From: Acidimicrobiia bacterium
Lineage (GTDB): Bacteria; Actinomycetota; Acidimicrobiia; IMCC26256; PALSA-610
DNA: 64,000 nt
Direction: 5' to 3'
Assembly: GCA_036271555.1 (NCBI GenBank)
Contig: DATBAK010000077.1
Location: 1-64,000 of the forward strand
In this document: one piece after another, positions 48,883-64,000 of the stretch
How positions within the stretch are numbered: position 1 is the stretch's first letter
Layout: each line of letters starts with the position of its first letter
The notes under the pieces: generated by a model
Databases searched by the model: none
The model's input: the letters and a program-made list of their open reading frames with translations, nothing else
Told to the model about the DNA's origin: nothing
Translations under genes and position numbers: made by a program

Positions 48883-50646
48883 ATGAGCAACGAGACCTTC
48901 GAGCGGACCGCGCTCGACGGCAAGGATCGGGAGCAGCTGCAGGCGATCGCCTCGGCGCTCGGTCTGAAGGCGATCAGCCGCCTGAAGAAGGCCGAGCTGG
49001 TCGATGCGATCCTCGGCGCGACCGCCGGCGCCAACGGCGGGAAGGGCGCGTCGGGGAACGGCGATCGCGCGACGAAGTCGCGCACGATCCGCTCCACGGG
49101 TCCTGCGAAGAGCGACCTCGACGTGCTCGCGGAGGAAGAGGCCGCGATCGCGGCCTCGGCCGCGACGCCGGAGCCCGACCTCATGCCGGCGCGCCGCCGT
49201 CCCGCGGCCGCGGCCGAGACCGAGAAGAACGGCCGCGCCGACACCGCGGCGGCGTCCGCACCGGCGTCCGCACCGGCGTCGGCCGCGTCGACCGATGCGC
49301 CGCCCGCGACTTCCCGTCAATCCGCGCCGGCCGACGACCACGCCGCGGTCGGTCACCACGACTTCGGAGGCTCGACGCCCGTCGGCGCGCCCGACAACGG
49401 CCAGCCCGGAAACGACTACGAGGGCAGCGGCAACAAGCGTCGCCGCCGACGACGCGGGCGTGACCGTGATCGCGAGCGCGGCTTCGAGCCCAAGCCCGAA
49501 GAGGCGACCGGCGAGGCGATCGAGGTCGAGGGTCTGCTCGACCTGCGCGACGAGGGTTACGGCTTCCTCCGCACCGGCAGCTACCTCGCGGGACGCGACG
49601 ACGCGTACGTGTCCGCATCGCAGGTGCGCCGCTTCGCGCTGCGCAAGGGCGACTTCATCAAGGGCGCGACGCGCGCCGCGGCGACCACCGAGAAGTACCC
49701 GGCGCTCATGCGCGTCGACGAGATCAACGACATGACGCCCGACGAGGCGCGGCAGCGGCCGCGCTTCGAGGACCTCACGCCGCTCTTCCCCGACGAGCGA
49801 CTGCGACTCGAGCTCGCCGGCAACCCGGCCGAGATGACCGGCCGGGTCGTCGACCTGATCTCACCGATCGGCAAGGGCCAGCGCGGGATGGTGGTGTCGC
49901 CGCCGAAGGCCGGCAAGACCACGATCCTCAAGCAGATCGTGTACTCGATCGAGCGCAACAATCCCGAGGTGCACCTCATGGTGCTGCTCGTCGACGAGCG
50001 GCCCGAAGAGGTCACCGACATGAAGCGCCACGTGCAGCGGGGCGAGGTGATCGCGAGCACGTTCGACCGTCCCTCCGACGAGCACACGCAGGTCGCCGAG
50101 CTCACGATCGAGCGCGCGAAGCGACTCGTCGAGCTGGGCAAAGACGTCGTGATCATCCTCGACGGCATCACCCGCCTGGCCCGCGCCTACAACCTCGCGG
50201 CGCCTGCGTCCGGCCGCATCATGTCGGGCGGTATCGACGCCGGCGCCCTCTATCCACCCAAGAAGTTCTTCGGCGCGGCCCGCAATGTCGAAGAGGGCGG
50301 CTCGCTCACGATCATCGCGACCGCGCTCGTCGAGACCAACTCGAAGATGGACGAGCACATCTTCGAGGAGTTCAAGGGCACCGGGAACATGGAGCTGCGC
50401 CTCGACCGCCGCACCGCCGACCGCCGCATCTTCCCGGCCATCGACGTCGAGCAGTCGAGCACCCGCCACGAGGAGCTTCTCTTCGACCGGATGGCGCTCC
50501 AGCAGGTCTGGAAATTACGGAGGGTCATGAGCGCGTTGGATGGCGGCGCGGGGCTCGAGCTGCTGCTCGACAAGCTCCGCACGACCAAGGGCAACGACGA
50601 GTTCCTCGCCCAGATCGCCAAGACGCCCTCGGGCATGGGCGCCTAA
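48883..50646 (+). CDS. rho: Transcription termination factor Rho
   Basis: This protein has 587 residues. The N-terminal Rho_N helix bundle (about 8-48) is followed by a disordered Ala/Pro/Ser then Arg-rich insertion (about 50-205, including KRRRRRRGRDRDRERG). Then come the cold-shock RNA-binding domain (GLLDLRDEGYGFLRTGSYL), Walker A SPPKAGKTTI, Walker B DVVIILDGITRL and the Q/R-loop region. Long inserts of this kind are typical of actinobacterial Rho and add RNA contacts. ATG 48883 is chosen over GTG 48880 because of GAGGAG spacing. Confidence 0.98.
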   Translation: MSNETFERTALDGKDREQLQAIASALGLKAISRLKKAELVDAILGATAGANGGKGASGNGDRATKSRTIRSTGPAKSDLDVLAEEEAAIAASAATPEPDLMPARRRPAAAAETEKNGRADTAAASAPASAPASAASTDAPPATSRQSAPADDHAAVGHHDFGGSTPVGAPDNGQPGNDYEGSGNKRRRRRRGRDRDRERGFEPKPEEATGEAIEVEGLLDLRDEGYGFLRTGSYLAGRDDAYVSASQVRRFALRKGDFIKGATRAAATTEKYPALMRVDEINDMTPDEARQRPRFEDLTPLFPDERLRLELAGNPAEMTGRVVDLISPIGKGQRGMVVSPPKAGKTTILKQIVYSIERNNPEVHLMVLLVDERPEEVTDMKRHVQRGEVIASTFDRPSDEHTQVAELTIERAKRLVELGKDVVIILDGITRLARAYNLAAPASGRIMSGGIDAGALYPPKKFFGAARNVEEGGSLTIIATALVETNSKMDEHIFEEFKGTGNMELRLDRRTADRRIFPAIDVEQSSTRHEELLFDRMALQQVWKLRRVMSALDGGAGLELLLDKLRTTKGNDEFLAQIAKTPSGMGA

Positions 50647-50679
50647 CCTTCACCCCTCCACGAACGAGACGAGATCGCC

Positions 50680-50931
50680 ATGAAGACCGAGACTCACCCG
50701 AACTACATCGAGTGCCAAGTGCACTGCTCCTGTGGGAACGAGTTCACGACCCGCTCGACGCTGCCCTCGCTGCGGGTCGAGCTGTGCTCGGAGTGCCACC
50801 CCTTCTACACCGGCAAGCAGAAGCTGGTCGACACCGGTGGTCGCGTGGATCGCTACCAGCGCCGGCTCGCGAAGTCGACGGCCGCGAAGGCCGCGGCGAA
50901 GAAGAAGCCGGCCGCCGCCCCTCCGGCGTAG
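50680..50931 (+). CDS. rpmE: 50S ribosomal protein L31, zinc-binding type
   Basis: This 83-residue protein opens [21 protein letters not shown] and has [13 protein letters not shown], so four cysteines can hold zinc (the C+ form). A lysine/alanine-rich tail follows. It sits in the large ribosomal subunit near the central protuberance. It begins 33 nt after the rho stop; the rho-rpmE order is conserved across Actinobacteria. The C+ form usually implies that a zinc-free paralog exists elsewhere for zinc starvation (family knowledge). Confidence 0.97.
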
Positions 50932-50962
50932 TCGTCCCGGTCTCGGCTCGGCCGGCGACGCG

Positions 50963-52042
50963 GTGAGCAACCTCCAGACGCACTGGACCGAAGCGGAGCT
51001 ACTGGCGACGCACGCGGTCGCCGAGCCGGTCGTGATCGAAGGCGTGCATTGTCACGGCGGCTTCGATGACGACGGCAACTACGTGTCGCCCCGCACGAAG
51101 TTCCGCGTGCCCGCGACCGCGGCGTGGCAGCAGGCGCATCGCGAGACGTTCGGGACCGACCTCATCGATGCGCCGCTCGCGTCGTGGCCCGCGCCGTACC
51201 CGAGCGTCGCGCAGGCCAAGTACCTCTTGTCGGAGGGCGTGCGGGGCCCGGTCGTCACGACGCTCACGCGCATCGGGACCGTCGAGGGCTTCGGCGCGAT
51301 GATCCGCCACCTCGGGCCCGACGATCTCCAGCCGTTCTTCGTCGAGAGCATCGACGGCACCTGCCTCGCGCACCTGCACCGCGGCCTGTTCGAGGCGCAG
51401 GCGCGCGACGAAGCCGGCTTCGAGGACGAAGCCGGTCACCGCGACATGTGGTTCGTCGCGCGCGACGTCGCCTTCGAGGACCCGGTGACTGCCGACGAGA
51501 GCCGCCGCATGCTCGGGCGCATGGGCATCCCCGCGTCGGCCGCGGCGGCGGTGCCCGCGTCGCCGACCCGTGCGCCGCAGCTCGTCGACGACCTCGATCC
51601 CGACATCGAGGCGATGGCCCGTTTCATGATCGGACTCCTCTTCATCGAGCTCTCCGCGTTCCACACGTTCGCGTGGGCCGAGGCGCTCCTCTCCGACGAC
51701 GACCTCGTCGCGGGCGACGGGCTCGCCGCACGCGTCGTGTCGTTCATCCGCAGCGACGAGACCCCACACGTCGAGTACTTGAAGACCGCGATCACCGAGA
51801 TGCGCGACCGCACCTTCGTCGGCGAGTCCGGCCGTCGGCACCCCGGCGCCGACGTCATCGCGCGCATGTGGGACGTCGCGCGCACCGAGTCGCGCACGGT
51901 GCGGCGGCCGACGCTGCTGCGCCAGACCCTCGCCGAGGTGGAGTACGCACTGCGCGACCATCGCCGCCGCGCCGACATCCTCGAGCAGTTCCACGCGCTC
52001 GGCACGCTGCGGCCGAACGCGCAGGGCGACCTCGCCGAGTAG
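50963..52042 (+). CDS. Uncharacterised protein with ferritin-like diiron ligand pattern
   Basis: This 359-residue soluble protein matches no family I can name. Residues line up as a diiron four-helix set: Glu128 (FFVESID), E156-x-x-H159 (DEAGH), Glu229 (FIELSAFH) and E266-x-x-H269 (DETPH). The pattern E, ExxH, E, ExxH is that of class I diiron carboxylate proteins. The region after about 320 is Arg-rich and helical. GTG 50963 is used. It lies between rpmE and prfA, an otherwise housekeeping stretch. Confidence 0.75.
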   Translation: MSNLQTHWTEAELLATHAVAEPVVIEGVHCHGGFDDDGNYVSPRTKFRVPATAAWQQAHRETFGTDLIDAPLASWPAPYPSVAQAKYLLSEGVRGPVVTTLTRIGTVEGFGAMIRHLGPDDLQPFFVESIDGTCLAHLHRGLFEAQARDEAGFEDEAGHRDMWFVARDVAFEDPVTADESRRMLGRMGIPASAAAAVPASPTRAPQLVDDLDPDIEAMARFMIGLLFIELSAFHTFAWAEALLSDDDLVAGDGLAARVVSFIRSDETPHVEYLKTAITEMRDRTFVGESGRRHPGADVIARMWDVARTESRTVRRPTLLRQTLAEVEYALRDHRRRADILEQFHALGTLRPNAQGDLAE

Positions 52043-52102
52043 TTCCTGAGGAATCAGGCCTACACTTCCGCCCCTCGTTGGACTGTGGGAAGTGGGGGCG
52101 AC

Positions 52103-52696
52103 ATGGGGACTCCTCGTACGGCGAAGCTCTGGATCGGACTCGTGCTCGCGATCGGCCTGGTGGCCGGCGCAGCCGGAAGCGCCGGAGCCAGCGATTTTCT
52201 GGTGCGCGACGGCAACTTCGAATACCCGAAGCTCCCAGCCGGCGGTGCCGGCTCCTTCTCCAAGGGCGACACGTTCGGCGCGTGGTCCGTGACCCGGGGC
52301 ACCGCGCAGCTCTTCACGGCCGTGCCCGGTCAGGCGAAGCCGCGGCAGGGCGCGCAGTTCCTCGCGCTCAACGGCCTGCCCACCGGCAACGGCGCCAAGA
52401 TCTGCCAGAACCTTCCCGGGCTCATCGAAGGCGGGGACTACACGCTGAGCCTCGCGGCCGCGTCGCTCAACCCGATCTCCTCCTCGACGGACTACAGCAC
52501 GTTCGATGTGCGAATCAACGACATTCGCATCGGCTTCCTCGACTTGAATGCGGCGCTTCCGGCGAAGTGGACGCACGCGAGCTTCGGGTTCGGCGCGAAC
52601 CTCCCGCACGAGAAGCTCTGCATCGAGGGCATCGGGAGCAGCACCTTCACCTTCCCGCTCATCGACGCGCTGTCGATCAAGCGCGTCGAGAGCTGA
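52103..52696 (+). CDS. Secreted protein, DUF642/choice-of-anchor C-like
   Basis: This 197-residue exported protein has a signal peptide (about 1-29, WIGLVLAIGLVAGAAGSAGA). One beta-sandwich domain begins FLVRDGNFEYPKLPAGG and includes WSVTRGTAQLFTA and QFLALNGLPTGNGAKICQNL. That pattern, an N-terminal NGNFE-type motif followed by Q-F/V-L-x-L-N-G, is found in DUF642-like carbohydrate- or wall-associated proteins. It has two Cys that may form a disulfide. TACACT (about 52058) and a G-rich stretch precede ATG 52103. Confidence 0.78.
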   Translation: MGTPRTAKLWIGLVLAIGLVAGAAGSAGASDFLVRDGNFEYPKLPAGGAGSFSKGDTFGAWSVTRGTAQLFTAVPGQAKPRQGAQFLALNGLPTGNGAKICQNLPGLIEGGDYTLSLAAASLNPISSSTDYSTFDVRINDIRIGFLDLNAALPAKWTHASFGFGANLPHEKLCIEGIGSSTFTFPLIDALSIKRVES

Positions 52697-52753
52697 CCTC
52701 GACCCGCCGCCCGTCCGACGTCGGCGACCACCGGTCGACGCACGAGTAACCCT

Positions 52754-52759
52754 TATCCT
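52754..52759 (+). promoter_or_regulatory. -10 box of leaderless prfA
   Basis: TATCCT lies exactly 6 nt before GTG 52766. No ribosome site precedes the start. Confidence 0.65.
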
Positions 52760-52765
52760 GCGTAG

Positions 52766-53830
52766 GTGTTCGACCACCTGCCGGAGCTGGAAGCGGAGTT
52801 CGACCGGCTCGAGGGGAGCCTCGCCGACATCGCCGCGGCCGGCGATCGACGCGCGACGCGCGACGCGGGGCGTCGCTACGCGGAGCTGAAGCCGGTCGTC
52901 GAGACCTGGCGCGCGCTCGCGACGGCGAAGGCCGAGCTCGCCGGCGCCCGCGAGCTGCTGAGCGGCGAGCGCGACTCCGAGATGAAGGCGATGGTCGAGA
53001 GCGAGATCGAGACGCTGCTCGCCCGCACCGCCGACCTCGAAGCCGAGCTCAAGGAGCTCCTGCTGCCCCGCGACCCGAACGACGGCCGCAACGCGATCGT
53101 CGTCATCCAGGGCACCGAGGGTGGGGAAGAGGCGAACCTCTGGGCCTCCGACCTGTTCCGCATGTACCAGCGTTTCGCCGAGACGCACGGGCTCAAGCTC
53201 GAAGTGCTGTCGAGCCAGCCGTCGGACCACGGCGGGTTCCGTGACGTGTCGTTCGTCCTGAAGGGCGCCGAGGCCTGGGCGGCGATCAAGTACGAGGGCG
53301 GGCCGCACCGTGTGCAGCGCGTCCCGGAGACGGAGAGCCAGGGGCGCATCCACACGAGCGCGGCGACGGTCGCGGTGTTGCCCGAAGCCGACGACGTCGA
53401 CGTCGAGATCGACCAGAAGGATCTCGAGATCGACGTCTTCCGCTCGAGCGGGCCCGGTGGGCAGTCGGTGAACACGACCGACTCCGCCGTGCGCATCACA
53501 CACGTGCCGACCGGCATCGTCGTCAGCTGCCAGAACGAGCGCAGCCAGCTCCAGAACCGCGACAAGGCGATGGCGATCCTGCGCGCACGCCTGCTCCAAC
53601 TCCAGCAGGAGCAGCAGGACGAAGCGCTCGCCTCGGCGCGCAAGCAGCAGGTGAAGGGCGGCGGTCGCTCCGAGAAGATCCGCACATACAACTACAAGGA
53701 CAACCGCGTCACCGATCACCGCATCGGGCTCACGGTCTACGCGCTCGACAAGGTGCTCGACGGCGACCTCGACGAGTTCATCGCCGCGCTCAAGGCCGAC
53801 GAACGGCAGCGGCAGCTCGGCGCGGAGTGA
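52766..53830 (+). CDS. prfA: Peptide chain release factor 1
   Basis: This 354-residue factor ends translation at UAA and UAG. The N-terminal coiled domain (1-110) precedes the recognition loop [10 protein letters not shown], with a P-x-T motif of the common PET type, and the peptidyl-hydrolysis motif [15 protein letters not shown] (GGQ). C-terminal [17 protein letters not shown] is the typical end region. GTG 52766 appears leaderless. Its stop overlaps the start of prmC, the enzyme that methylates the GGQ glutamine. Confidence 0.98.
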
Positions 53831-54732
53831 CGACGGCTCGCGCGAGCTGGGCGCAGCAGCGCCGCTTCGTGACCGATCGATTGCGTGAGGTCGGCATCGA
53901 CTCGGCCGACGCCGAGGCGCGGTGGCTCACCGAGACCGCGTCGGGATACGCGGGCGCCGAGTGGCTCGCAGTCGCAGCGAAGCTGCCCAACGACCGCGCG
54001 CAGGCGCACCTCGACGCGATGGTCGAGCGCCGCCTCGCGGGTGAGCCGTTGCAGTACGTGCTCGGTTCGTGGAGCTTTCGCGGGCTCGACCTGATGGTCG
54101 ATCACCGCGTGCTGATCCCGCGACCCGAGACGGAGTGGGTCGTCGAGGTCGCGCTCGAAGAGGCGACGCGCGTCGGCCTGCGGCGCGGCGTGCATCGCGC
54201 GCTCGACGCCGAGACGACCGCGGTCGTGGCCGACCTCGGTACCGGCTCGGGCGCGATCGCGCTCGTGCTCGCGGCCGAGCTGACCGACGCGGAGGTGTGG
54301 GCGACCGACGTCAGCAGCGACGCGCTCGCCGTCGCGGCGGCCAACATCGCGGGATGCGGCGCGACGCGCGTGCGGCTCGCCGAAGGCTCGTGGTTCGACG
54401 CGCTGCCCGGCCCGCTCGCCGGCACGCTCGCGCTCGTCGTCGCGAACCCGCCGTACGTTGCCGCACACGAGCTCGACGGGCTCGCGCCGGAGGTCGCGCA
54501 GCACGAACCGCACCGCGCGTTGGTGAGCGGACCGACGGGACTCGAGGCGATCGAGGAGCTGCTCGCGTCGGCGCCGGCCTGGCTCGCGCCCGGTGCGGCG
54601 ATCGTGCTCGAGATCGCGCCGCACCAAGCGGACGTGGTCACGGCGATCGCGCGCACCGCCGGCTTCGACGACGTGCGCGTGCTCGACGACTTCTCGTTCC
54701 GGCCGCGCGTCCTCGTCGCGCGGCGCGGATAG
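53827..54732 (+). CDS. prmC: Release factor glutamine methyltransferase
   Basis: This 301-residue enzyme methylates the GGQ Gln of release factors. The N-terminal helical domain (1-75) binds the factor. The catalytic domain has the SAM loop [18 protein letters not shown] and the substrate motif VVANPPYV (NPPY). GTG 53827 overlaps the prfA stop, so enzyme and substrate are coupled, as in most bacteria. Confidence 0.97.
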
Positions 54733-54735
54733 CGT
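54730..54735 (+). promoter_or_regulatory. -10 box of leaderless small gene
   Basis: TAGCGT begins with the prmC stop codon and ends 7 nt before ATG 54743. Confidence 0.5.
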
Positions 54736-54742
54736 CTCGCGT

Positions 54743-54958
54743 ATGGCCGACGAGCTCGACGTCGACGCGATGCTGACCCGCTTCCGCGATCGCGCGGAGG
54801 CCGTGCGGAACCGGCCGCTGCCACCGGTGGCCGGCCCCGATCGACAGCGGTTCGTCGACCAGGCGCAGACCGACTATCAGGACTTCGCGATCGTCGGCGA
54901 CGCGAGCTGGTCCTTCGACGACGGCGTCCTGACCTTCACGATCGATCTGCGTCCGTAA
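54743..54958 (+). CDS. Small acidic hypothetical protein
   Basis: This 71-residue protein begins ADELDVDAMLTRFRDRAEAV, has a conserved-looking FVDQAQTDYQDFAIVGDASW and a beta-strand tail LTFTIDLRP. I do not recognise a family; the mix of an amphipathic helix and a strand-rich tail and the codon use are those of a real gene. It follows prmC by 10 nt and seems to have its own leaderless promoter. Confidence 0.72.
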   Translation: MADELDVDAMLTRFRDRAEAVRNRPLPPVAGPDRQRFVDQAQTDYQDFAIVGDASWSFDDGVLTFTIDLRP

Positions 54959-54961
54959 CTA

Positions 54962-55101
54962 CTGGTCGGGCTCGCAAGCTCGCCCTCCTCGACGTCTCAG
55001 GCGCCGGTCGCTCCTGCCGGAACGGGCGGTCGTTTCGCGGCCCGTCCGACTCGAGACCTGAGGCGTCAGGAGCGGCGAGCGCAGCGAGTGCGACCGGAAG
55101 G
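54962..55101. repeat. Intergenic repeat element, copy 2, with internal dyad
   Basis: The left part repeats 46009-46060 (CTGGTCGGGCTCGCAAGCT, then CGCCCTCC). The right part carries CCTGAGGCGTC followed by AGGAGCGGCGAGCGCAGCG, which is inverted relative to the left part (GACGTCTCAGG, GGTCGCTCCTGCCG), so the element can fold on itself. It fills the gap between convergent genes and may act as a bidirectional terminator. Confidence 0.7.
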
Positions 55102-55102
55102 C

Positions 55103-55498
55103 TCAGATCCGGTTGTGGTCGTCGATGCCGGCGCCCTGATCGAGGCCGTGGAGGAACGCGCGGTCGACCGCGACCCAGAGCGTCTTCGAGAACGGGTACC
55201 AGAGGATCGGTCCGAGGGCCACGATCGGTACGAAGATCGCCAGCATCAACGGGATCGGCGTATCGGGAACGGTGAGGATCATCGCGACGGTGAAGCCGAT
55301 CACGAACACCACGCCGACGCAGATGATGTTGATCGCGATCGCGCCCGCCCAGTAACCCTGCTCGCGTTCGAAGTGCAGACCGCAGCGCGGGCAGTCGGGC
55401 ACCATCGAGAGGTAGTGGCGGAAGAGCTTGCCCGAGCCGCAGCGCGGGCAGCGGCGCGTGAACCCACGGGCGAACACCGTGGCTCGGCTCGTCGGCAT
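55103..55498 (-). CDS. DUF983-family zinc-ribbon membrane protein
   Basis: This 131-residue protein has an N-terminal zinc ribbon of two CPRCG-type knuckles ([15 protein letters not shown] and PDCPRCGLHF). Two membrane helices follow (AIAINIICVGVVFVIGFTVA and LMLAIFVPIVALGPILWYP). The family function is unknown. ATG 55498 has TACGCT (55512-55507) 8 nt upstream, consistent with a leaderless mRNA. Its stop faces the repeat at 54962-55101. Confidence 0.9.
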   Translation of the reverse strand: MPTSRATVFARGFTRRCPRCGSGKLFRHYLSMVPDCPRCGLHFEREQGYWAGAIAINIICVGVVFVIGFTVAMILTVPDTPIPLMLAIFVPIVALGPILWYPFSKTLWVAVDRAFLHGLDQGAGIDDHNRI

Positions 55499-55515
55499 GG
55501 GGTGAGAGCGTACGG

Positions 55516-57021
55516 TCAGGCCAGCGTGTTCGCCGTACCGTCGTTGACCACTCGCACGGTGCGGCCTTCCCAACCGGTGCGCGTCAGCTCGAGCATCAGG
55601 TCGGGATCACGCGAGTTCGCGAGGGCGCGCCGGCTGTCGGGCAGCAGACCGGCGACGATCGCAACCGCGGGCGTGCCGTCCCGCTCCATCACGACGGATG
55701 TCGCCTCGATCGTCATGTCGCCTTCGACGAGCCCGGCCGGCTCGCGGCGGGGGAGCGCGTCGGCCTCGGCCTGCGTGCGCGCAGGATCGACGCGCGCGAA
55801 CCGCGCGGGCGGCGACGTCGACCACACGCCGGCCGAGTGCTTCGTCGCGTACCAACCGAGCGCGGTCGTCAGCCCGACCGAGCCGGGATCGGCGCGCAGC
55901 GCGTCGACCATCGCGGCGATGCCGTGCGTCGGGTAGTTGTTGACGGGACCGCCGGCGAAGCCGAGTCCGCCCGTGACGGTGAGCGGCCGGTCGTCCCCGC
56001 CGGCGCGGCCGCGCAACCCGATCGCGTGCATCGCCATCTGCACGGCCGACGGGAAGCACGAGTAGAGGTCGAAACGCGCGACGTCGTCGACGCCGAGGCC
56101 CGCCGCGTCGAGCGCGGCGCGCACGGTGATCCCGATCGCCGGCGCCTCCGCGAGCGCGGCCCGCTCGGTGACGAACCAGTGGTCGTGCGCGTCGGCGCCC
56201 GCGTGCAGGAACACCATGCGATCCTCGGCGATCCCCATCGAACGCGCCGCCTCGTACGAGCACAGGATGACGGCCGCGCCCTGGTCCACGTCGATGTTGG
56301 CGCACATGCGCTTCGTGTACGGGAACACGACCATGCGGTTCTCGGCCGTGGGCGTGACGATCGCTTCGGCTGTGTACGCGACGCGCGACCACGCGTGCGG
56401 GTTGCTCGCGGCGACGGCCGCGAACTGCGACCACAGCTCGCCGGTTGCCTGCTGGTGCTCGGCGATCGTGCGGTCGGCGGCCGCGCGCAACGCGGTCTCG
56501 AACAGCGGATAGATGTGCGTCGGCGCGACCGCGAAGTGGGCCTGCTCGATCTCGTTCGTGCCGGCACGCGGGTCGCCGATGACGCGCGCGTACGGCGTGC
56601 CCTCGTCGACGGCCCAGTCGAGATGCACGCGTGGCTCGCGGCGCGCACCCCAGCGGGCGTGCATCGACTCCGCGCCGCCGATGACGACGACGTCGCACGA
56701 GCCCGCCGCGATCTCCGCGGCCATCTCGTTCACGAGCAGTTGCGGGCTGTTGCCGCCGACGGTGCTGACGACCGCGCGGCGCGGCTCGATGCCGAGCTCC
56801 GCCGCGACGCGCGCGCCGGGATCCGCGTACGGCCACGACACGATCTGGACCGCGGCGACCGTGTCGACGCGCGCGAGCACGCTGCCGCCTTGCCCGCTGT
56901 CGTCGGCCGCGGCGCGCACCGCGTCGGCGAACAGCGCGATCGGCTCACGCGCGTCCGCGGGTGCGACGCGCTGCTCGACCTGTCCGACTCCGACGACCAC
57001 CGGCGTGCGCGGGTCGGTCAC
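55516..57021 (-). CDS. Thiolase-like protein type 1 (TLP1) with C-terminal extra domain
   Basis: This 501-residue thiolase-superfamily protein opens PRTPVVVGVGQVEQRVAPAD. The usual nucleophile-Cys segment reads STVGGNSPQLLVNEMA without Cys, so thiolysis is unlikely. The His region is FAGGPVNNYPTHGIAAM. Beyond about residue 415 a small beta-rich domain follows, like the additional C-terminal domain of mycobacterial TLP1. Its ligand and reaction are unknown; CoA esters are expected. GTG 57021 overlaps the stop of the nuclease gene, making it the last gene of a leftward chain. Confidence 0.88.
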   Translation of the reverse strand: MTDPRTPVVVGVGQVEQRVAPADAREPIALFADAVRAAADDSGQGGSVLARVDTVAAVQIVSWPYADPGARVAAELGIEPRRAVVSTVGGNSPQLLVNEMAAEIAAGSCDVVVIGGAESMHARWGARREPRVHLDWAVDEGTPYARVIGDPRAGTNEIEQAHFAVAPTHIYPLFETALRAAADRTIAEHQQATGELWSQFAAVAASNPHAWSRVAYTAEAIVTPTAENRMVVFPYTKRMCANIDVDQGAAVILCSYEAARSMGIAEDRMVFLHAGADAHDHWFVTERAALAEAPAIGITVRAALDAAGLGVDDVARFDLYSCFPSAVQMAMHAIGLRGRAGGDDRPLTVTGGLGFAGGPVNNYPTHGIAAMVDALRADPGSVGLTTALGWYATKHSAGVWSTSPPARFARVDPARTQAEADALPRREPAGLVEGDMTIEATSVVMERDGTPAVAIVAGLLPDSRRALANSRDPDLMLELTRTGWEGRTVRVVNDGTANTLA

Positions 57022-57827
57022 TCGCTCTCCTCGCCGTCGTTGTCGCCGGCGAGCGCGAGCACGGGCCAGTCGGGCTCGCCCGCCGCGGCGCTGTCGACGC
57101 AGACCGACCGGAACCGGCACCATTGGCACACGGCCGGGTCGCGCACGCCCTGCCATTCCTCGAGCGACCACCACGTGGCCACCGTCGCGCGCAGCTCCTC
57201 CTCGATCGCGTCGAGATCCTCGTCGTCGGGCTCGTACGGCTCGGGATCGTCGTCGACCTCGGCCGCGAGGTGCTCGTAGCGCAGCCGCAGCCGCAGCCCC
57301 TGGCGCTGCGCGTGCTGCGCGAGCACGAACGCCTGCACGCGCGCACGCGCGTCGTCGCCGACGCGCTCGTACCAACGCGAGCCGGTCTTGTAGTCGCGTG
57401 CGTCGAGGAGCCCATCGTGGATCCAGACCGCGTCGATGCGCGCGGTCGCCATGAACATCGGCGCGGGCGCGCGGTGGAATCGCGCGAGGTCGATCTCGTG
57501 CTTCTGGCGGTCGGACTCCGACGGGCAGCGCGCCGCGTGGCGGGCGACCATCCCCGCGAAGTGCGGATCGTCGACGCCATGGCCCGCGAGCACGTCGCGC
57601 ACGTGGTCTTCGTCGTGGCACGTGCCCTGCTCGTGCACGACTCGCAGCATCTCGTGCAACAGGATTCCGTGGTCGGTCGGCTTGCTCGAGTCGCTCGGCG
57701 GCACCCCGAGCAGGTGCTGCAGGAGGAACTCGCGCGGGCAGCGCCTCCAGGTCTCGTACGCGGTCGGCGTGATCGTGACGATGTCGGACAACAGCTTGCG
57801 CCGCCCCGCGGCGCGCTCGTTGCTCAT
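57018..57827 (-). CDS. PD-(D/E)XK nuclease with four-cysteine (Fe-S) staple
   Basis: This 269-residue RecB/Cas4-like nuclease has His58 in GILLHEML, Asp132 in RIDAVW, the core D145-Y-K147 in DARDYKTG and Gln165. Cys30 (RRCPREF) together with C233-x2-C236-x5-C242 (CQWCRFRSVC) forms the iron-sulfur staple pattern of AddB and Cas4-type nucleases. It should cut or resect single-stranded DNA ends. No helicase gene is adjacent. ATG 57827 overlaps the stop of the mini-ORF; its own stop overlaps the thiolase-like gene. Confidence 0.9.
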   Translation of the reverse strand: MSNERAAGRRKLLSDIVTITPTAYETWRRCPREFLLQHLLGVPPSDSSKPTDHGILLHEMLRVVHEQGTCHDEDHVRDVLAGHGVDDPHFAGMVARHAARCPSESDRQKHEIDLARFHRAPAPMFMATARIDAVWIHDGLLDARDYKTGSRWYERVGDDARARVQAFVLAQHAQRQGLRLRLRYEHLAAEVDDDPEPYEPDDEDLDAIEEELRATVATWWSLEEWQGVRDPAVCQWCRFRSVCVDSAAAGEPDWPVLALAGDNDGEESE

Positions 57828-57931
57828 GCGGCTTCGTCCGCCACCGCTCGATCCGCACGGTTCGGCGCCGTGGGTGAGCCCTCCGCGGCGGCGGTCTGCG
57901 CCTCGCTCGTCTCGGGGGTGGCCGTGCTCAC
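57824..57931 (-). CDS. Candidate 35-residue coupling mini-ORF
   Basis: GTG 57931 overlaps the stop of the upstream gene (GTGA), and its TGA overlaps the ATG of the nuclease gene (ATGA). The product (STATPETSEAQTAAAEGSPT and onward) is rich in Ala, Thr and Glu and likely disordered. Both junctions fitting the overlap style of this genome argue that ribosomes pass through it. It may serve coupling rather than encode a folded protein. Confidence 0.45.
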   Translation of the reverse strand: MSTATPETSEAQTAAAEGSPTAPNRADRAVADEAA

Positions 57932-58626
57932 GAGTGTGCCTTGCAGCCGGGCACGAACGCGCAGCCGCGGCAGTCGTCGCCGGCCTTGGGAGTCGGGTCC
58001 GCGGCGCGCTCGCGCACGAGCGCGATGCGATCGTCGATCCATGCGCGCGCATCCGACAACGCGCCGGCGACGTCGAGCACGTCCTCCACGAGCGCGCCCG
58101 CGAGCAGGTCGACGGCCACGAGCCGCAGCGGCCGCTCGCCGACCCACGCGGCGGCCCGTACGACGAGCGCCCGCCGGTCGGCGTCGTCGATCAACGGGCG
58201 GTTGCCCGCGACACCGATGCGCAGCGACCGGATCTCGGGCGTGCCGTCGGCCCGCTCGAGCGCGAGACCGAGCGGCGACACGAGCCGCATGCCGACGTCG
58301 GCGAGCTCGGCCTCCCACGGATCGACCGCGACCGCGCGCGCCGGACGGTCGGCGAACAGCGCGACGTAGCCCTCCGCCGCGGCTCGGTAGACGCGCTGCT
58401 GCTCGAGGACGAGATCGGTCGGTGGTGGGAAGTCGGAGACGTGCGCGGCGCGCAACTCGGTGTGCGCGACGCGTGCGTCCTCGGTGATGCGATTGTTCAC
58501 CGCGAAACGCGCCGACGGCCCGCGGTGACCCCGCACGCCGGCGAGGTCGCGCTCGAGCCGCCGGCGGCACATCGTCTCGGCTCGGCGCAGGTGCGTGAGC
58601 GTGACGCGCGGCAGCTCGTCGTCCAC
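57928..58626 (-). CDS. Putative inactive PD-(D/E)XK-like partner with matching four-cysteine staple
   Basis: This 232-residue protein is not obviously in a known family. It has Cys20 (RRAETMCRR) and C219-x2-C222-x5-C228 (DCRGCAFVPGC). The C-terminal spacing is identical to that of the nuclease two frames downstream, and the N-terminal Cys is similarly placed. The segment where D-x-K is expected reads EIRSLRIG, without the catalytic Asp-Tyr-Lys. I infer a degenerate nuclease fold that pairs with the active one. GTG 58626 has TAGGCT 6 nt upstream, so the operon seems leaderless. Confidence 0.7.
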   Translation of the reverse strand: MDDELPRVTLTHLRRAETMCRRRLERDLAGVRGHRGPSARFAVNNRITEDARVAHTELRAAHVSDFPPPTDLVLEQQRVYRAAAEGYVALFADRPARAVAVDPWEAELADVGMRLVSPLGLALERADGTPEIRSLRIGVAGNRPLIDDADRRALVVRAAAWVGERPLRLVAVDLLAGALVEDVLDVAGALSDARAWIDDRIALVRERAADPTPKAGDDCRGCAFVPGCKAHS

Positions 58627-58632
58627 GAGCGG

Positions 58633-58638
58633 AGCCTA
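58633..58638 (-). promoter_or_regulatory. -10 box of the nuclease-pair operon
   Basis: TAGGCT, read leftward, ends 6 nt before GTG 58626. Confidence 0.6.
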
Positions 58639-58690
58639 CGGTCCGCCACTGACACCGTCGGGGGTACCCGGCGCGTGCCGGGTGCGCCCC

Positions 58691-58696
58691 TACGAT
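58691..58696 (+). promoter_or_regulatory. -10 box of DUF4012 gene
   Basis: TACGAT ends 8 nt before ATG 58705; no ribosome site is visible. Confidence 0.55.
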
Positions 58697-58704
58697 GCGA
58701 AGCA

Positions 58705-60480
58705 ATGGAGACGAGGGCGCGCGGCTCCCGGCGCACCCGCCGACTCGTCCTGCTCGGCGTGTTCATCGTGCTCGTCGCGTGGGGCGCGTTCACCGCGCTG
58801 ACCCTCGTACGCGCGCGTCACGACACGCGCCTCGGCATCGACGCGCTCGAGTCGGTGCAGGAGAAGCTCACGCCGGGCCAGCTGCTGCGCGGTGAGGGCG
58901 TGCCGCAGCTCCGCACCGCGCAGACGGACTTCACGCGCGCCCGAGAACGCGTGCGCTCGCCGTTGCTCGCGCCGTTGCGCATCATCCCGGTGCTCGGTCG
59001 CCAGATCGACTCGGTCGACACGCTCACGGGCTCGGCCGCGCACGTCGTCGACATCGGGATCGACGCGGTCGTGCAGTCGCGGCGGGTCGTGAACGCGGGC
59101 CATCCGACCGGCGCCGCGCGCGTGCGTCTCGTCGCGCAGCTCGCGACGATCGCCGACCAGTCGTCCTCCCAGCTCCAGACCGTTGACCTCGGACCGACGC
59201 ACCTCATCGGTCCGCTCGCCAACGCGCGCTCCGAGTTCGCGACTCGCCTGCACGACCTCCGTCACGCGATCGGTCAGCTCCGGGCCGCGTCGCACGGTCT
59301 CGCCGCCTTCCTGCGCGGCCCGAGTCGCTATCTCGTGCTCGCGGCGAACAACGCCGAGATGCGGGTGGGATCGGGCACGTTCCTCGAGGTCGGCATGCTC
59401 ACGGTGAACCAGGGCAGCCTGCGGCTCGACTCGATGAAGTCGGTCGGCTCCTACCCGGTCGCGCCGGGTGCGGTGCCGTTGACCGGTTATGTCGCCGCCC
59501 GGTGGGGCTTCCTCCAGCCGAACGTCGAGTGGCGCAACCTCGGCGCCTCGCCCCAGTTCCCGTCGCAGGCCCGGCTCGCGAGTCAGATGTGGCATGCCGC
59601 GACCGGCCAGACGGTGAACGGCGTGCTCGCGCTCGACGTCGTCGCGCTGAAGGACCTGCTCCAGGCCACCGGGCCGGTGCACCTCGCCGACGGCACCACG
59701 ATGACCGCCGACCAGGTGCTCGGCGACGTCATGCTGCACCAGTACCTCGGCCTCGTCGGCTATCCCGACCAGACGACCCGCCGGGACCGGCTCAGCGAGA
59801 TCGCGCGGGGCGCCCTCGACGACCTCGACCACGGCGGCTGGCACGCGGCCGACCTGGTCGACGACCTCCGCGGCGCCGCGCAGGGCCGGCACCTGCTGGC
59901 CTGGTCCCCGAATCAGCAGGAGCAGGCGGGCTGGACCGCGGCCGGCATCGACGGGATCGTGCCCGACGACGGCGTGCTCGTGGGCCTCCACAACCGGGGC
60001 GGCAACAAGCTCGACCAGTTCGTCGTCATCCACGGGAAGGTCGGCGTGGGCCGGGCGCCGAAACCGACGGCCGGTGCGGGCTGGAGCGTCCGCCTCACCC
60101 TGCAGATGCAGAACGTCACCCCCGCGACCGGGATCCCGCAGTACGTCGAGGGCCCGTATCCAGGCGCGATCGGCGCCGCCGCCGGCCTCTACCAGGGCTA
60201 CGCGGTCGTCGAGCTCCCGCGCGCGGCCGAATCGATCCATCTGACGGTCGACGGAAAACCGGCGCCGCTCGTCACCGCGGGACCCGACGGCACGAGCCAG
60301 GTGGTGGCCGCCTACGTTCAGATTCCGCGCGGAATCTCACGCACAGTGGTCGCCTCGTTCACCCTGCCGACCGCCCAACGGTCGCTGTTCTTCGCGCCCT
60401 CCGCGCGAGTCCCGGCGATCGCCTGGACGGCTCCAAGCCTTACGTGGAGCGACGATGTGGGCCGAAGAGTGGCGTGGTGA
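58705..60480 (+). CDS. DUF4012 membrane-anchored extracytoplasmic protein
   Basis: This 591-residue protein has an Arg-rich start and one membrane helix (about 14-36, VLLGVFIVLVAWGAFTALTL), so most of it is outside. The DUF4012 core is marked by PSRYLVLAANNAEMRVGSGT and later LDVVALKDLLQATGPV. A C-terminal beta domain follows (about 470-585). DUF4012 relatives are often found in exopolysaccharide or wall-polymer loci, which fits the neighbouring sugar transferase and glycoside hydrolase, but no activity is known to me. Confidence 0.9.
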   Translation: METRARGSRRTRRLVLLGVFIVLVAWGAFTALTLVRARHDTRLGIDALESVQEKLTPGQLLRGEGVPQLRTAQTDFTRARERVRSPLLAPLRIIPVLGRQIDSVDTLTGSAAHVVDIGIDAVVQSRRVVNAGHPTGAARVRLVAQLATIADQSSSQLQTVDLGPTHLIGPLANARSEFATRLHDLRHAIGQLRAASHGLAAFLRGPSRYLVLAANNAEMRVGSGTFLEVGMLTVNQGSLRLDSMKSVGSYPVAPGAVPLTGYVAARWGFLQPNVEWRNLGASPQFPSQARLASQMWHAATGQTVNGVLALDVVALKDLLQATGPVHLADGTTMTADQVLGDVMLHQYLGLVGYPDQTTRRDRLSEIARGALDDLDHGGWHAADLVDDLRGAAQGRHLLAWSPNQQEQAGWTAAGIDGIVPDDGVLVGLHNRGGNKLDQFVVIHGKVGVGRAPKPTAGAGWSVRLTLQMQNVTPATGIPQYVEGPYPGAIGAAAGLYQGYAVVELPRAAESIHLTVDGKPAPLVTAGPDGTSQVVAAYVQIPRGISRTVVASFTLPTAQRSLFFAPSARVPAIAWTAPSLTWSDDVGRRVAW

Positions 60481-60598
60481 TGCCTCTCCCGGATGGGTAC
60501 GACGAGTCCGGAGTTGCGCGCGATCGCTTCGTGAACCCTTGTCAATGAGCGAGGGAACCGCTACACTCCGTGGCACAAGACCTGGGAGGGCTACAGCA

Positions 60599-60895
60599 AT
60601 GACCACCATTCGCACACGCGTTCTGCGATTCGCCGCAGCCAGCGGAATTGTCGCTGGTGTCGCGATGATGCCGGCTCACGCCTTCGCAGCCTGCAACAAC
60701 TACGGCGGCGGGAGCTGCGGCTCCGCCAGCAGCGTACCGACTCCGTCGACCGCGGTGAGCGCTCAGACTTCCAACGACGGAAGCCTGCCCTTCACCGGTG
60801 GCGACGTCGTCGGACTCTCGCTGATCGGTATCGGTGCTCTCGCCGGCGGTACGGCGTTGGTCCGGTCCGGTCGCCGCAAGGCCGTCGGCGTCTGA
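60599..60895 (+). CDS. Small LPXTG-anchored surface protein
   Basis: This 98-residue protein has a signal peptide (about 1-30, ending AHAFAA), a short Gly/Ser/Cys-containing mature part (CNNYGGGSCG) and a complete sorting signal. The signal is LPFTGGDVV, the hydrophobic VGLSLIGIGALAGGTALV and RSGRRK. Sortase would attach it to the wall; after processing only about 40 residues remain, so it may be a spacer or coat peptide. GGGAGGG upstream of ATG 60599 and TACACT near 60561 provide expression signals. Confidence 0.85.
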   Translation: MTTIRTRVLRFAAASGIVAGVAMMPAHAFAACNNYGGGSCGSASSVPTPSTAVSAQTSNDGSLPFTGGDVVGLSLIGIGALAGGTALVRSGRRKAVGV

Positions 60896-60907
60896 CGCGA
60901 CCCCCGC

Positions 60908-60925
60908 GATCCGCACCTGCGGATC
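60908..60925 (+). terminator. Hairpin after LPFTG gene
   Basis: GATCCGCA and TGCGGATC pair perfectly around CC, 13 nt after the stop. No U-tract follows, so termination strength is uncertain. Confidence 0.45.
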
Positions 60926-60971
60926 GTCTGCGTCACGACAACGAAGTTCGAATTTCCCCCTGTGATCGTCT

Positions 60972-61007
60972 GCGAGCGGCGGGCCCGTCGAGGCCCGCCG
61001 TTCTCGC
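60972..61007. terminator. Strong GC hairpin between convergent genes
   Basis: CGGCGGGCC (60977-60985) pairs with GGCCCGCCG (60992-61000) around CGTCGA, extended outward by GCGAG and CTCGC with a two-base bulge. It lies between the convergent LPFTG and sugar-transferase genes and could stop both. Confidence 0.65.
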
Positions 61008-61082
61008 GTCCGCGGACGACGTTCGCGCGCTGAGCGCGGCGCACCCCGCGGTGTCGATCGCCGGGCTGCGCGCGGTGCGGGG

Positions 61083-62666
61083 TTAGTCCCCGCCACCCTC
61101 GGCGGCCGGCGGCGGGAACTGCTCCGGTGGCTCCAGCTCGTCCTGCGTCTCGGGCGTCGACATGGTCGTCGGGCCCCGGAAGCCCGCGCTGAGCGTCCGG
61201 ATCAGGATCACGACGTCGCGCCACAGCGACCAGTGCTCGATGTACTGGTTGTCGAAGCGCACCCGTTCGCGCAGGGACGTGTCGCCCCGGAGCCCGTGCA
61301 CCTGGGCCCAGCCGGTGAGCCCGACGGGCAGCCGGTGCCGGTCGCGGTAGCCCGACACCGACGTGTTGAACTGCTCGACGAGATAGCCCCGCTCGGGCCG
61401 GGGGCCGACCAGGCTCATGTCGCCGCGGAGCACGTTCCAGAGTTGGGGGAGCTCGTCGATGCTGAGGCGGCGGAGCACCTTGCCGACCCGGTTGTAGCGC
61501 TCGTCGGCCGCGTTCCAGGAGTCGTCGACGTGGTTCGCCGGGAGGGTCCGGAACTTGAGCACCACGATCTCTTCGCCGTGCTGGCCGATCCGCCGCTGGC
61601 GGAACAGCACCGGCCCGGAGCTGCCGAGCTTCACCGCGAGCGCGGAGAAGGCCATGATCGGCGAGGTCAGGACGAGGAGCGCGAGCGACAGCACGACATC
61701 GACCGCGCGCTTGACCCGCCAGACCCGGGCGCGCAGCGCGGCCTGCCGCATGCGGTAGATCGGGATGCCCCAGAGGTCGTCGACGTCCGGACCGCGCGGT
61801 GCGACACCGACCTCGAAGAAACGGGGCACGACGTGCACCTCGACGTCGCGCAGCACCGCGGTGCGCAGCACGCCGACGAGGTCGGCCTCGCGGGTCGGAC
61901 CGAACGCCACGAGCACGCGGGTCACGCCGTAGTCGCGCACGACTCGCTCGAGATCGGCGACCTCGCCGAGGAGCGGGCTCGGGAGACCGGGATACGGCGC
62001 GCCGACGAAGCCGTTCAGCTCGAGCCCGTACTCGGGGTGATGGAGGATGAGGTTCGCGAGCTCGACGCCGACGTGTCCGGTCCCGGCGACGATCGTCGCT
62101 TCCCGCAGCCCGCGCCGGCGCACGCGGCGCAGCAGCGCGTAGCCGAACGAGCGCATCAACACGAGCGCGATGACGGAGAACAACGCCTGCCAGAGCAGGC
62201 GTGACTGCGAGGAACCGGCGATGGGTCCGAGCAGCAGGAGCGGCAACGCGGCGACGGTCGCGATGCGCGGCGCCTCGTCGAGCGAGCTGAGGCTGATCCG
62301 CAAGCGGTAGGCGCCGGACGAAAGCAGTGCGGCCATCGCGAGCAGCGCGTAGATCGCGTTCACGCCGGTTGCGGGCCGGGTGACGAGCAGCGCCACGCCG
62401 AGTCCGATCAGGTCGCCGCCGAAGACGACGGTCGCGGCGATCGCTGCGGGCCGGCGGTCACGTCGGTGCACCGGGACCGGGACGAGTTGGAGCGCGTCGG
62501 GACCCGTGGGGGACCCGTCGCCCGTGCGCTGTGGGTTGCCTCCGTGCCGTCGGCCGCTACTCGGCAAGCGACGTTCCGACGCCGAGGCAGTGCTCGCTGG
62601 CTTTGCCACGGTGCTCCTGGTGCCTCTCCCACGGAGGCGGCCGTTCCTGTTGCCGTTCCCCACCAT
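61083..62666 (-). CDS. Polyprenyl-phosphate sugar-1-phosphate transferase (WbaP/WcaJ type)
   Basis: This 527-residue membrane enzyme starts polysaccharide assembly by moving a sugar-phosphate from a nucleotide sugar to undecaprenyl phosphate. It has several N-terminal membrane helices (about 78-180) and a Rossmann-like middle (REATIVAGTGHVGVELANLI). The C-terminal sugar-transferase domain has VKRAVDVVLSLALLVLTSPI, FRQRRIGQHGE, KFRTL and DELPQLWNVLRGDMSLVGPRP. The first 70 residues are a disordered basic extension. ATG 62666 is used; the first helix follows much later, so shorter starts are possible. Confidence 0.95.
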   Translation of the reverse strand: MVGNGNRNGRLRGRGTRSTVAKPASTASASERRLPSSGRRHGGNPQRTGDGSPTGPDALQLVPVPVHRRDRRPAAIAATVVFGGDLIGLGVALLVTRPATGVNAIYALLAMAALLSSGAYRLRISLSSLDEAPRIATVAALPLLLLGPIAGSSQSRLLWQALFSVIALVLMRSFGYALLRRVRRRGLREATIVAGTGHVGVELANLILHHPEYGLELNGFVGAPYPGLPSPLLGEVADLERVVRDYGVTRVLVAFGPTREADLVGVLRTAVLRDVEVHVVPRFFEVGVAPRGPDVDDLWGIPIYRMRQAALRARVWRVKRAVDVVLSLALLVLTSPIMAFSALAVKLGSSGPVLFRQRRIGQHGEEIVVLKFRTLPANHVDDSWNAADERYNRVGKVLRRLSIDELPQLWNVLRGDMSLVGPRPERGYLVEQFNTSVSGYRDRHRLPVGLTGWAQVHGLRGDTSLRERVRFDNQYIEHWSLWRDVVILIRTLSAGFRGPTTMSTPETQDELEPPEQFPPPAAEGGGD

Positions 62667-62851
62667 CGCTACCCGTACAGGTAACGCCGCGCGTCTTCAA
62701 CCCTATCGGCCGACTTGCCGGGCGCGTAAAGGTTGCGGCGACACCGCGACTCCCGAGATGAGGGCGATTCGCGCACTCTGCGCGCTCAAGAGGTCGCGTG
62801 ACGTGGTCGACGGCCAAAGGAGAGACGCACGGACCTCGGGGGAATCGCTTC

Positions 62852-64000
62852 ATGCTCGGACGACGAATCGCGCAGCGAATCGCGGCCGGCGCCGCCATCG
62901 TGGTGGCGCTCGGGGGTGTCGCCACCGTGGCGGCCGCGAACACCGGTACGAACGTGGTGACCGTGCCGCCGCCGGCGAGCGGCGCGCAGCTGACGATGGG
63001 CTCGACGGTCGGTTTCAACGGCCAGCAGCTCATGTGGGCGAGCGACGCAGTGATGGCGCGCGAGCTCGACGGCGTCGCGGCGACGGGTTCGCGCTGGCTG
63101 CGTGTCGACTTCCCGTGGTCGTCGCTCGAGGCGGGCGGACGCGGTCGCTACAACTGGGCGCAGGCCGACCGGCTCGTCACGGCCGCGAACGCGCGCGGCA
63201 TCCACCTGCTCGCGATGGTCGCGTACACGCCGACGTGGGATCGGCCCGCGAACACGAACGACCACTACCAGCCGACCGACCCGACGGCGTACGCGGAGTT
63301 CATGCGCGCCGCGGCGCAGCGGTACGCGCCGCGCGGTCTGCACGCGTGGGAGATCTGGAACGAGCCGAACATGCGCGACTTCTGGCAGCCCGTGCCGAGT
63401 CCCGCGCGCTACACGCAGTTGCTGCGGCTCGCGTCCGCGGCCATTCACTCCGTCGACCGGTCGGCGTACGTCGTGAGCGGCGGGGTCGCGCCGGCGCGTG
63501 ATGTCGCGGGCTACTCGATCGCCCCCAACGAGTTCGTCGCCGCCATCTATGCGAACGGTGGACGCGGTGCGATGCAGGCCGTCGGTCTGCATCCGTACTC
63601 GTTCCCTTACGCGCCGATGACGCCCGCATCGTGGAACACCTTCTACATGGCGACGCAGACGCACGCGATCATGGCCGCGCACGGCGACGGCGCACGACCG
63701 ATCTGGGCGACCGAGATCGGGTGGCCGACGGGGACCGGTCACGGCGCGGTGAGCGAAGCGCAGCAGGCGGTGATGGCCGCGGCCGCGATCACCGCGTGGA
63801 ACCGCTTCTCGTTCGCCGGCAACTTCTTCTGGTACAACTGGCAGGACACGAGCGCGAACCCGGCGAGCACCTTCGACAACCTCGGGGTGCTCCGCTACAA
63901 CGGCACCGCCAAGCCTGCGCTCGGGGTGTTCAAGGCGATGCTGGCACGGCCGGCCGCGCACATCGATCACGGACCGCCTGCGTACGGACCGTGGCTCGTC
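62852..64000 (+). CDS. Secreted clan-A glycoside hydrolase (GH39/GH5-like), truncated by window edge
   Basis: There are 383 codons before the right edge. The N-terminal signal peptide is about residues 1-30 (GAAIVVALGGVATVAAA). The TIM-barrel domain has WLRVDFPWSSLE, the acid/base Glu in WEIWNEPN and the nucleophile Glu in WATEIGWPTG. The pair places it in clan GH-A, near beta-xylosidase-like GH39. GGGGGA precedes ATG 62852. With the sugar transferase and DUF4012 genes it suggests a locus for making and trimming a surface polysaccharide. Confidence 0.9.
   Translation, partial: MLGRRIAQRIAAGAAIVVALGGVATVAAANTGTNVVTVPPPASGAQLTMGSTVGFNGQQLMWASDAVMARELDGVAATGSRWLRVDFPWSSLEAGGRGRYNWAQADRLVTAANARGIHLLAMVAYTPTWDRPANTNDHYQPTDPTAYAEFMRAAAQRYAPRGLHAWEIWNEPNMRDFWQPVPSPARYTQLLRLASAAIHSVDRSAYVVSGGVAPARDVAGYSIAPNEFVAAIYANGGRGAMQAVGLHPYSFPYAPMTPASWNTFYMATQTHAIMAAHGDGARPIWATEIGWPTGTGHGAVSEAQQAVMAAAAITAWNRFSFAGNFFWYNWQDTSANPASTFDNLGVLRYNGTAKPALGVFKAMLARPAAHIDHGPPAYGPWLV

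Follow-up and report, generated by a model that had tools for sequence, protein, structure and literature searches.

An intact iron-sulfur (Fe-S) nuclease of the PD-(D/E)XK type, P1, and a degenerate protein of the same predicted fold, P2, are encoded by neighbouring genes in a 64,000-nucleotide stretch of Acidimicrobiia DNA (the window; Table 1). The two proteins probably make up a two-subunit, helicase-free DNA-processing enzyme, composed of an active nuclease and a pseudo-nuclease, whose role is most likely chromosomal repair or the trimming of DNA ends. As the genes are always found together, and sometimes as one protein, P1 and P2 probably constitute one small DNA-processing machine. In the collection of papers searched, none describing the pair was found.

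Table 1. Positions of the gene unit and associated features in the window
Feature	Position	Strand	Remarks
P2, degenerate Fe-S PD-(D/E)XK protein	57928..58626	-	232 aa, GTG start, first in the unit
P1, Fe-S PD-(D/E)XK nuclease	57018..57827	-	269 aa, ATG start
35-codon ORF bridging P2 and P1	57824..57931	-	candidate, read from the sequence
P1 stretch with H65, C70, H97 and C101, possible second metal site	57525..57635 (about)	-	residue conservation
-10-like TAGGCT, 6 bases before the P2 start	58633..58638	-	leaderless-type promoter, motif scan
Acetyl-CoA acetyltransferase-like (thiolase) gene	55516..57021	-	its GTG overlaps the P1 stop

Layout and expression of the gene unit

In the translated window, P2 lies upstream and P1 downstream, both on the minus strand. 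The sequence-only reading had described the two genes as coupled through overlapping codons, which holds for the window in an indirect form. The P2 stop (57928) and the P1 start (57827) are separated by 100 bases, with no direct overlap, and the coupling runs through the 35-codon ORF, the GTG of which overlaps the P2 stop (GTGA) while its own stop overlaps the P1 start (ATGA). The predicted product of this ORF begins VSTATPETSEAQ. The gap filled by this ORF is absent from relatives, in which direct ATGA overlap or fusion of the two genes is common. The thiolase-like gene overlaps P1 by GTGA at 57018-57021; it is a frequent downstream neighbour of P1 in the order, and a functional link to the pair is not evident.

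In 31 of 36 loci, a TANNNT motif stands 4-9 nucleotides ahead of a candidate start of P2, compared with 1.4% for random start codons, and this placement points to a putative leaderless transcript beginning at P2. The scan for sigma-70 promoters and terminators produced nothing useful, and the Rfam scan of positions 50000-64000 gave no match. In addition, no SOS box was detected upstream of P2, so that regulation lends no support to a damage-response role.

Residues and predicted folds of P1 and P2

P1 matches PF12705 (PDDEXK_1, RecB-type PD-(D/E)XK nucleases) with 68.4 bits, above the cut-off of 22. Its translation contains exactly the nuclease residues claimed from the sequence, namely H58, D132, D145-Y146-K147 and Q165, together with a four-cysteine staple formed by C30, C234, C237 and C243. 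Across 25 P1 homologues, no change is seen in C30, H58, D132, Y146, K147, Q165 or C234/C237/C243, and the only substitution at D145 is a single Glu. Because the residues, apart from this Glu, are kept in all these homologues, the pattern is not a product of chance. Moreover, H65 and C70 (H-x4-C) as well as H97 and C101 (H-x3-C) are invariant in the 25 homologues of the order. In distant pairs, H65, H97 and C101 are likewise invariant, and C70 is partly replaced, with a His nearby. Judging from the spacing of these residues and the exchange between Cys and His, they possibly constitute a second metal site. The corresponding stretch of AddB from the same genome, inspected by eye, has no H-x4-C/H-x3-C motif.

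From the sequence alone, P2 had been read as carrying a matching Cys20 and the same C-x2-C-x5-C end but no catalytic D-x-K, and this is borne out by its translation (C20, C219/C222/C228) and by 37 homologues. C20 is present in 36 of the 37 rows, one row being truncated, C219 and C222 in all 37, and C228 in 33, the gaps in the other four being due to rows cut to length. Residues vary freely in the columns where P1 has D145 and K147, and the D and K of motif III occur together in a single row out of 37 (locus L079, genome G006). One position has retained Asp in 13 of the 37 rows, perhaps a remnant of the Asp of motif II, and conservation beyond the staple cysteines takes in E75, Y87 and R133. 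P2 itself scores 13.1 bits against PF12705, below the cut-off of 22, while the same model matches 13 of 25 P2 homologues at E <= 1, with a best value of 7e-6. By profile and fold together, P2 is a distant, degenerate relative of PF12705. At two loci, L095 in genome G021 and L096 in genome G029, the P2 matches are in two pieces, possibly owing to an insertion, a broken frame, or an artefact of assembly or alignment.

Searches of the Protein Data Bank returned nothing with the P1 sequence alone, a marginal match to ACE1 with the P1 profile (E 0.1), and unrelated chance matches only with the P2 profile. Since these sequence and profile searches gave nothing firm, a comparison of folds was needed. 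The window P2, modelled alone (pLDDT 95, pTM 0.89), matches ACE1 with a Z score of 14.2 (4.0 Å over 223 residues), AdnA with 13.3 and AddB with 10.5, and on account of these matches P2 is predicted to adopt a full PD-(D/E)XK fold. For P1, the model used was that of a fused homologue of the order, predicted as a single chain from 12 alignment rows (pLDDT 80, pTM 0.78); its pTM value suggests that the two predicted domains have a fixed placement. The P1 half of this chain matches AdnA with a Z score of 16.1 (3.7 Å over 224 residues), ACE1 with 15.6 and AddB with 13.2. Unrelated folds, which would have spoken against a nuclease pair, were not what the models gave; the predicted fold is the same on both sides. 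The kinship is also apparent from the family profiles, which align over 218 columns (E 3.6e-5, probability 71%). The distance correlation between P1 and P2 is 0.80, a raw figure that includes common descent, and P2 diverges faster than P1, with mean identities of 36% and 49%, respectively. In the viral structure library, matches were limited to generic PD-(D/E)XK phage nucleases. The earlier statement that helicase domains are lacking is correct for both proteins, as none was found in P1 or P2 by a Pfam domain search.

Linkage, distribution and surroundings

In all 38 loci examined within one Acidimicrobiia order, probably IMCC26256 of GTDB, P2 immediately precedes P1 on the same strand; the searched set includes Actinobacteria bacterium IMCC26256 (CP011489, locus L134). 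The two genes mostly overlap or nearly do so, many of them by 4 bases (ATGA) and others standing a few bases apart, and in 11 of the 38 loci they form one continuous open frame. In the tree of P1, the 10 fused rows tested group as a single clade with 99/99 support, and the fusion therefore looks like a single event. Among 61 genomes searched around the window, a P2 match was obtained in 39 and a P1 match in 42 (E <= 0.001), the latter number taking in a few other nucleases or fragments, and the apparent exceptions to adjacency (G054, G025 and G013) sit at the end of a contig or close to it. The genes are found together in every case where the locus is represented on both sides, the 11 fused frames included, in keeping with the pairing first read from the window. 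The pair is missing from several genomes of the order that are nearly complete, and is consequently not essential.

In the wider search of the class, strong P2 matches were confined to the order; weak matches of the P2 profile outside it, mostly to ORFs of ~1000 aa or to stand-alone RecB-like ORFs, were not counted as P2. P1 was clear outside the order only in genome G062. A diverged P2 precedes P1 in G062 (locus L146), where the gene context differs, and also in an Acidimicrobiales record (L145), and in both the P1 start overlaps the P2 end, in L145 by ATGA. The search of the phylum added three genomes from a different class (G404, G434 and G414; loci L153, L154 and L155) in which P1 is present, each time with P2 in front, and with an ATGA overlap in G404, at L153. 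In that class, the pair adjoins phosphate-transport-like genes and is present in 3 of 66 genomes. Within the order, synteny accounts for part of the nearly constant adjacency. Inherited synteny as the only cause of adjacency is weakened by the pairs in other contexts and classes, and because these divergent pairs sit in different surroundings, the linkage between P1 and P2 is more than shared synteny.

On one flank of the pair, the neighbours conserved in the order, named from their sequences, are thiolase, DUF983, prmC, prfA and rho; the opposite flank carries either DUF4012 with sugar-transferase genes or glyA together with wecA-like and ATP-synthase genes. The setting is chromosomal, among housekeeping genes. 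None of the conserved neighbours was recognised as an Argonaute, cas (including cas1 and cas2) or restriction gene, nor was a helicase gene recognised among the recurrent ones. Intact, separate AddB and AddA genes are carried by another contig of the same genome (G000:C74, L151:2306-8998), and for this reason a replacement of AddAB by the pair was rejected. Both AddA and AddB of this genome have their own nuclease domains. The genome also contains a further stand-alone RecB-like ORF (G000:C30:38315-39046).

Known relatives and the probable function

The closest nuclease fold is that of AdnAB from mycobacteria and of AddAB, which resemble the pair in having an Fe-S-type nuclease domain and two linked subunits of nuclease fold. 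By cysteine pattern and predicted fold, the four-cysteine staple core of these enzymes is present in P1 and P2. Unlike the pair, AddAB and AdnAB have an SF1 (UvrD-type) helicase domain, which was recognised neither in P1 and P2 nor among their recurrent neighbours. The AddAB-like pairing put forward by the sequence-only reading thus holds for the nuclease fold and the two linked modules, with the differences that AddAB exists separately in the same genome and one partner, P2, is without the catalytic D-x-K. ACE1, an Argonaute-associated protein of the Cas4 family (PDB 9iab, 9iac), is similar to P1 and P2 in size and fold and in standing alone, whereas the pair consists of two different chains, one of them a pseudo-nuclease, and no Argonaute gene was recognised beside it. 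Cas4 and Csa1 of CRISPR adaptation modules also share the Fe-S four-cysteine staple and the RecB-type core. Paralogous cas4 genes, two of which share an operon in Sulfolobus islandicus, have been proposed there to form a complex, in a study that takes all Cas4 proteins as active nucleases (PMC5704561). P1, in contrast, is far under the Cas4 cut-off (TIGR00372, 13.8 bits against 65), and cas1 and cas2 are not among the recognised neighbours of the pair.

EXO5, MGME1 and Dna2 possess the same core, which acts on single-stranded DNA; EXO5 and Dna2 are Fe-S proteins, and EXO5 and MGME1, being helicase-free, offer a model for action without a motor. In contrast to the pair, all three are single active chains of eukaryotes, with Z scores lower than those of AdnA or ACE1. 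XPF-ERCC1 and MUS81-EME1 are heterodimers in which a catalytic subunit is joined to a degenerate one of the same fold. The pair appears to follow the same principle, and the likeness is one of design only; these heterodimers belong to another branch of the PD-(D/E)XK superfamily and are without the Fe-S staple. In its presumed working the pair resembles the nuclease portion of AddAB/AdnAB, and in its design XPF-ERCC1, and it is filed under neither. Linkage, fusion and motif loss support a putative heterodimer of nuclease and pseudo-nuclease with one catalytic site.

In the proposed mechanism, the unit would be expressed from one promoter, with P2 first. P1 would be the catalytic subunit, an Fe-S-stapled nuclease of the RecB/AdnA/Cas4 type that cuts DNA with a divalent metal, its substrate most likely being single-stranded ends or flaps. 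P2 would be a pseudo-nuclease of the same fold that has kept the Fe-S staple and, in a physical complex with P1, serves as structural and DNA-binding partner, holding or positioning the substrate for P1. The pathway would most likely be chromosomal DNA repair or the trimming of ends exposed by other enzymes. A bolder version can be put forward tentatively, according to which the Fe-S pseudo-nuclease and the Fe-S RecB-type nuclease, the latter with its second His/Cys metal site, may form an obligate, helicase-free, structure-specific machine, a parallel to XPF-ERCC1 made from domains of the Cas4/AdnA type.

It has to be considered whether the pair is instead an anti-phage or anti-plasmid nuclease, akin to the Cas4-like nucleases of defence islands. 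Cas4-like PF12705 nucleases do occur in defence contexts (PMC5704561), ACE1 is among the closest folds, and the presence of the pair outside the order is patchy. In PADLOC-DB 2.0.0, P1 matches models of DruK and Cas4, but weakly, the best E value being 5e-4 (DruK), and P2 gave no match. The neighbours are housekeeping genes in most of the order, with no Argonaute, restriction or cas gene recognised among the conserved ones, and they favour a chromosomal role over defence without proving it. Moreover, a scan of viral contigs (IMG/VR) yielded no relatives of the pair, and tblastn against plasmids and phages no copies, all of which leaves a defence function unlikely. Similarly low is the probability that the pair is a detachable accessory of AddAB or of another helicase, which would recruit the nuclease module in trans. 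AddA and AddB are indeed encoded elsewhere in the genome, and the nuclease folds of the pair are of the AdnA/AddB kind; however, these two proteins already have nuclease domains of their own, and the recurrent neighbours of the pair include no recognised helicase gene.

The remaining alternatives concern P2. Its faster divergence, and the restriction of its conserved residues mainly to the staple cysteines and a few of the core, would suit a passive partner, a chaperone or stabilising factor that helps P1 to fold or loads it with Fe-S and takes no part in DNA binding. Yet P2 has retained the whole predicted nuclease fold and its own staple across classes and became one chain with P1 in a clade, so a purely passive P2 seems improbable. 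The loss of catalytic residues might even indicate a decaying, functionless duplicate kept by position alone, as might the P2 pieces at the loci in G021 and G029, if those breaks are not artefacts. This possibility is strongly disfavoured and hardly credible, for the open frame and staple cysteines are conserved in 37 homologues, and P2 is kept in distant classes and in other contexts as well as in fusion with P1. A DNA-processing enzyme of nuclease and pseudo-nuclease remains the preferred reading.

Fe-S nucleases of the RecB type are usually found as the tail of a helicase or as a lone chain. If the preferred reading is true, this branch of nucleases also makes heterodimers of a catalytic and a pseudo-catalytic subunit. 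The pair would then offer a small, testable system for studying the non-catalytic function of the Fe-S staple, and it is a candidate DNA-repair factor in the poorly studied Acidimicrobiia.
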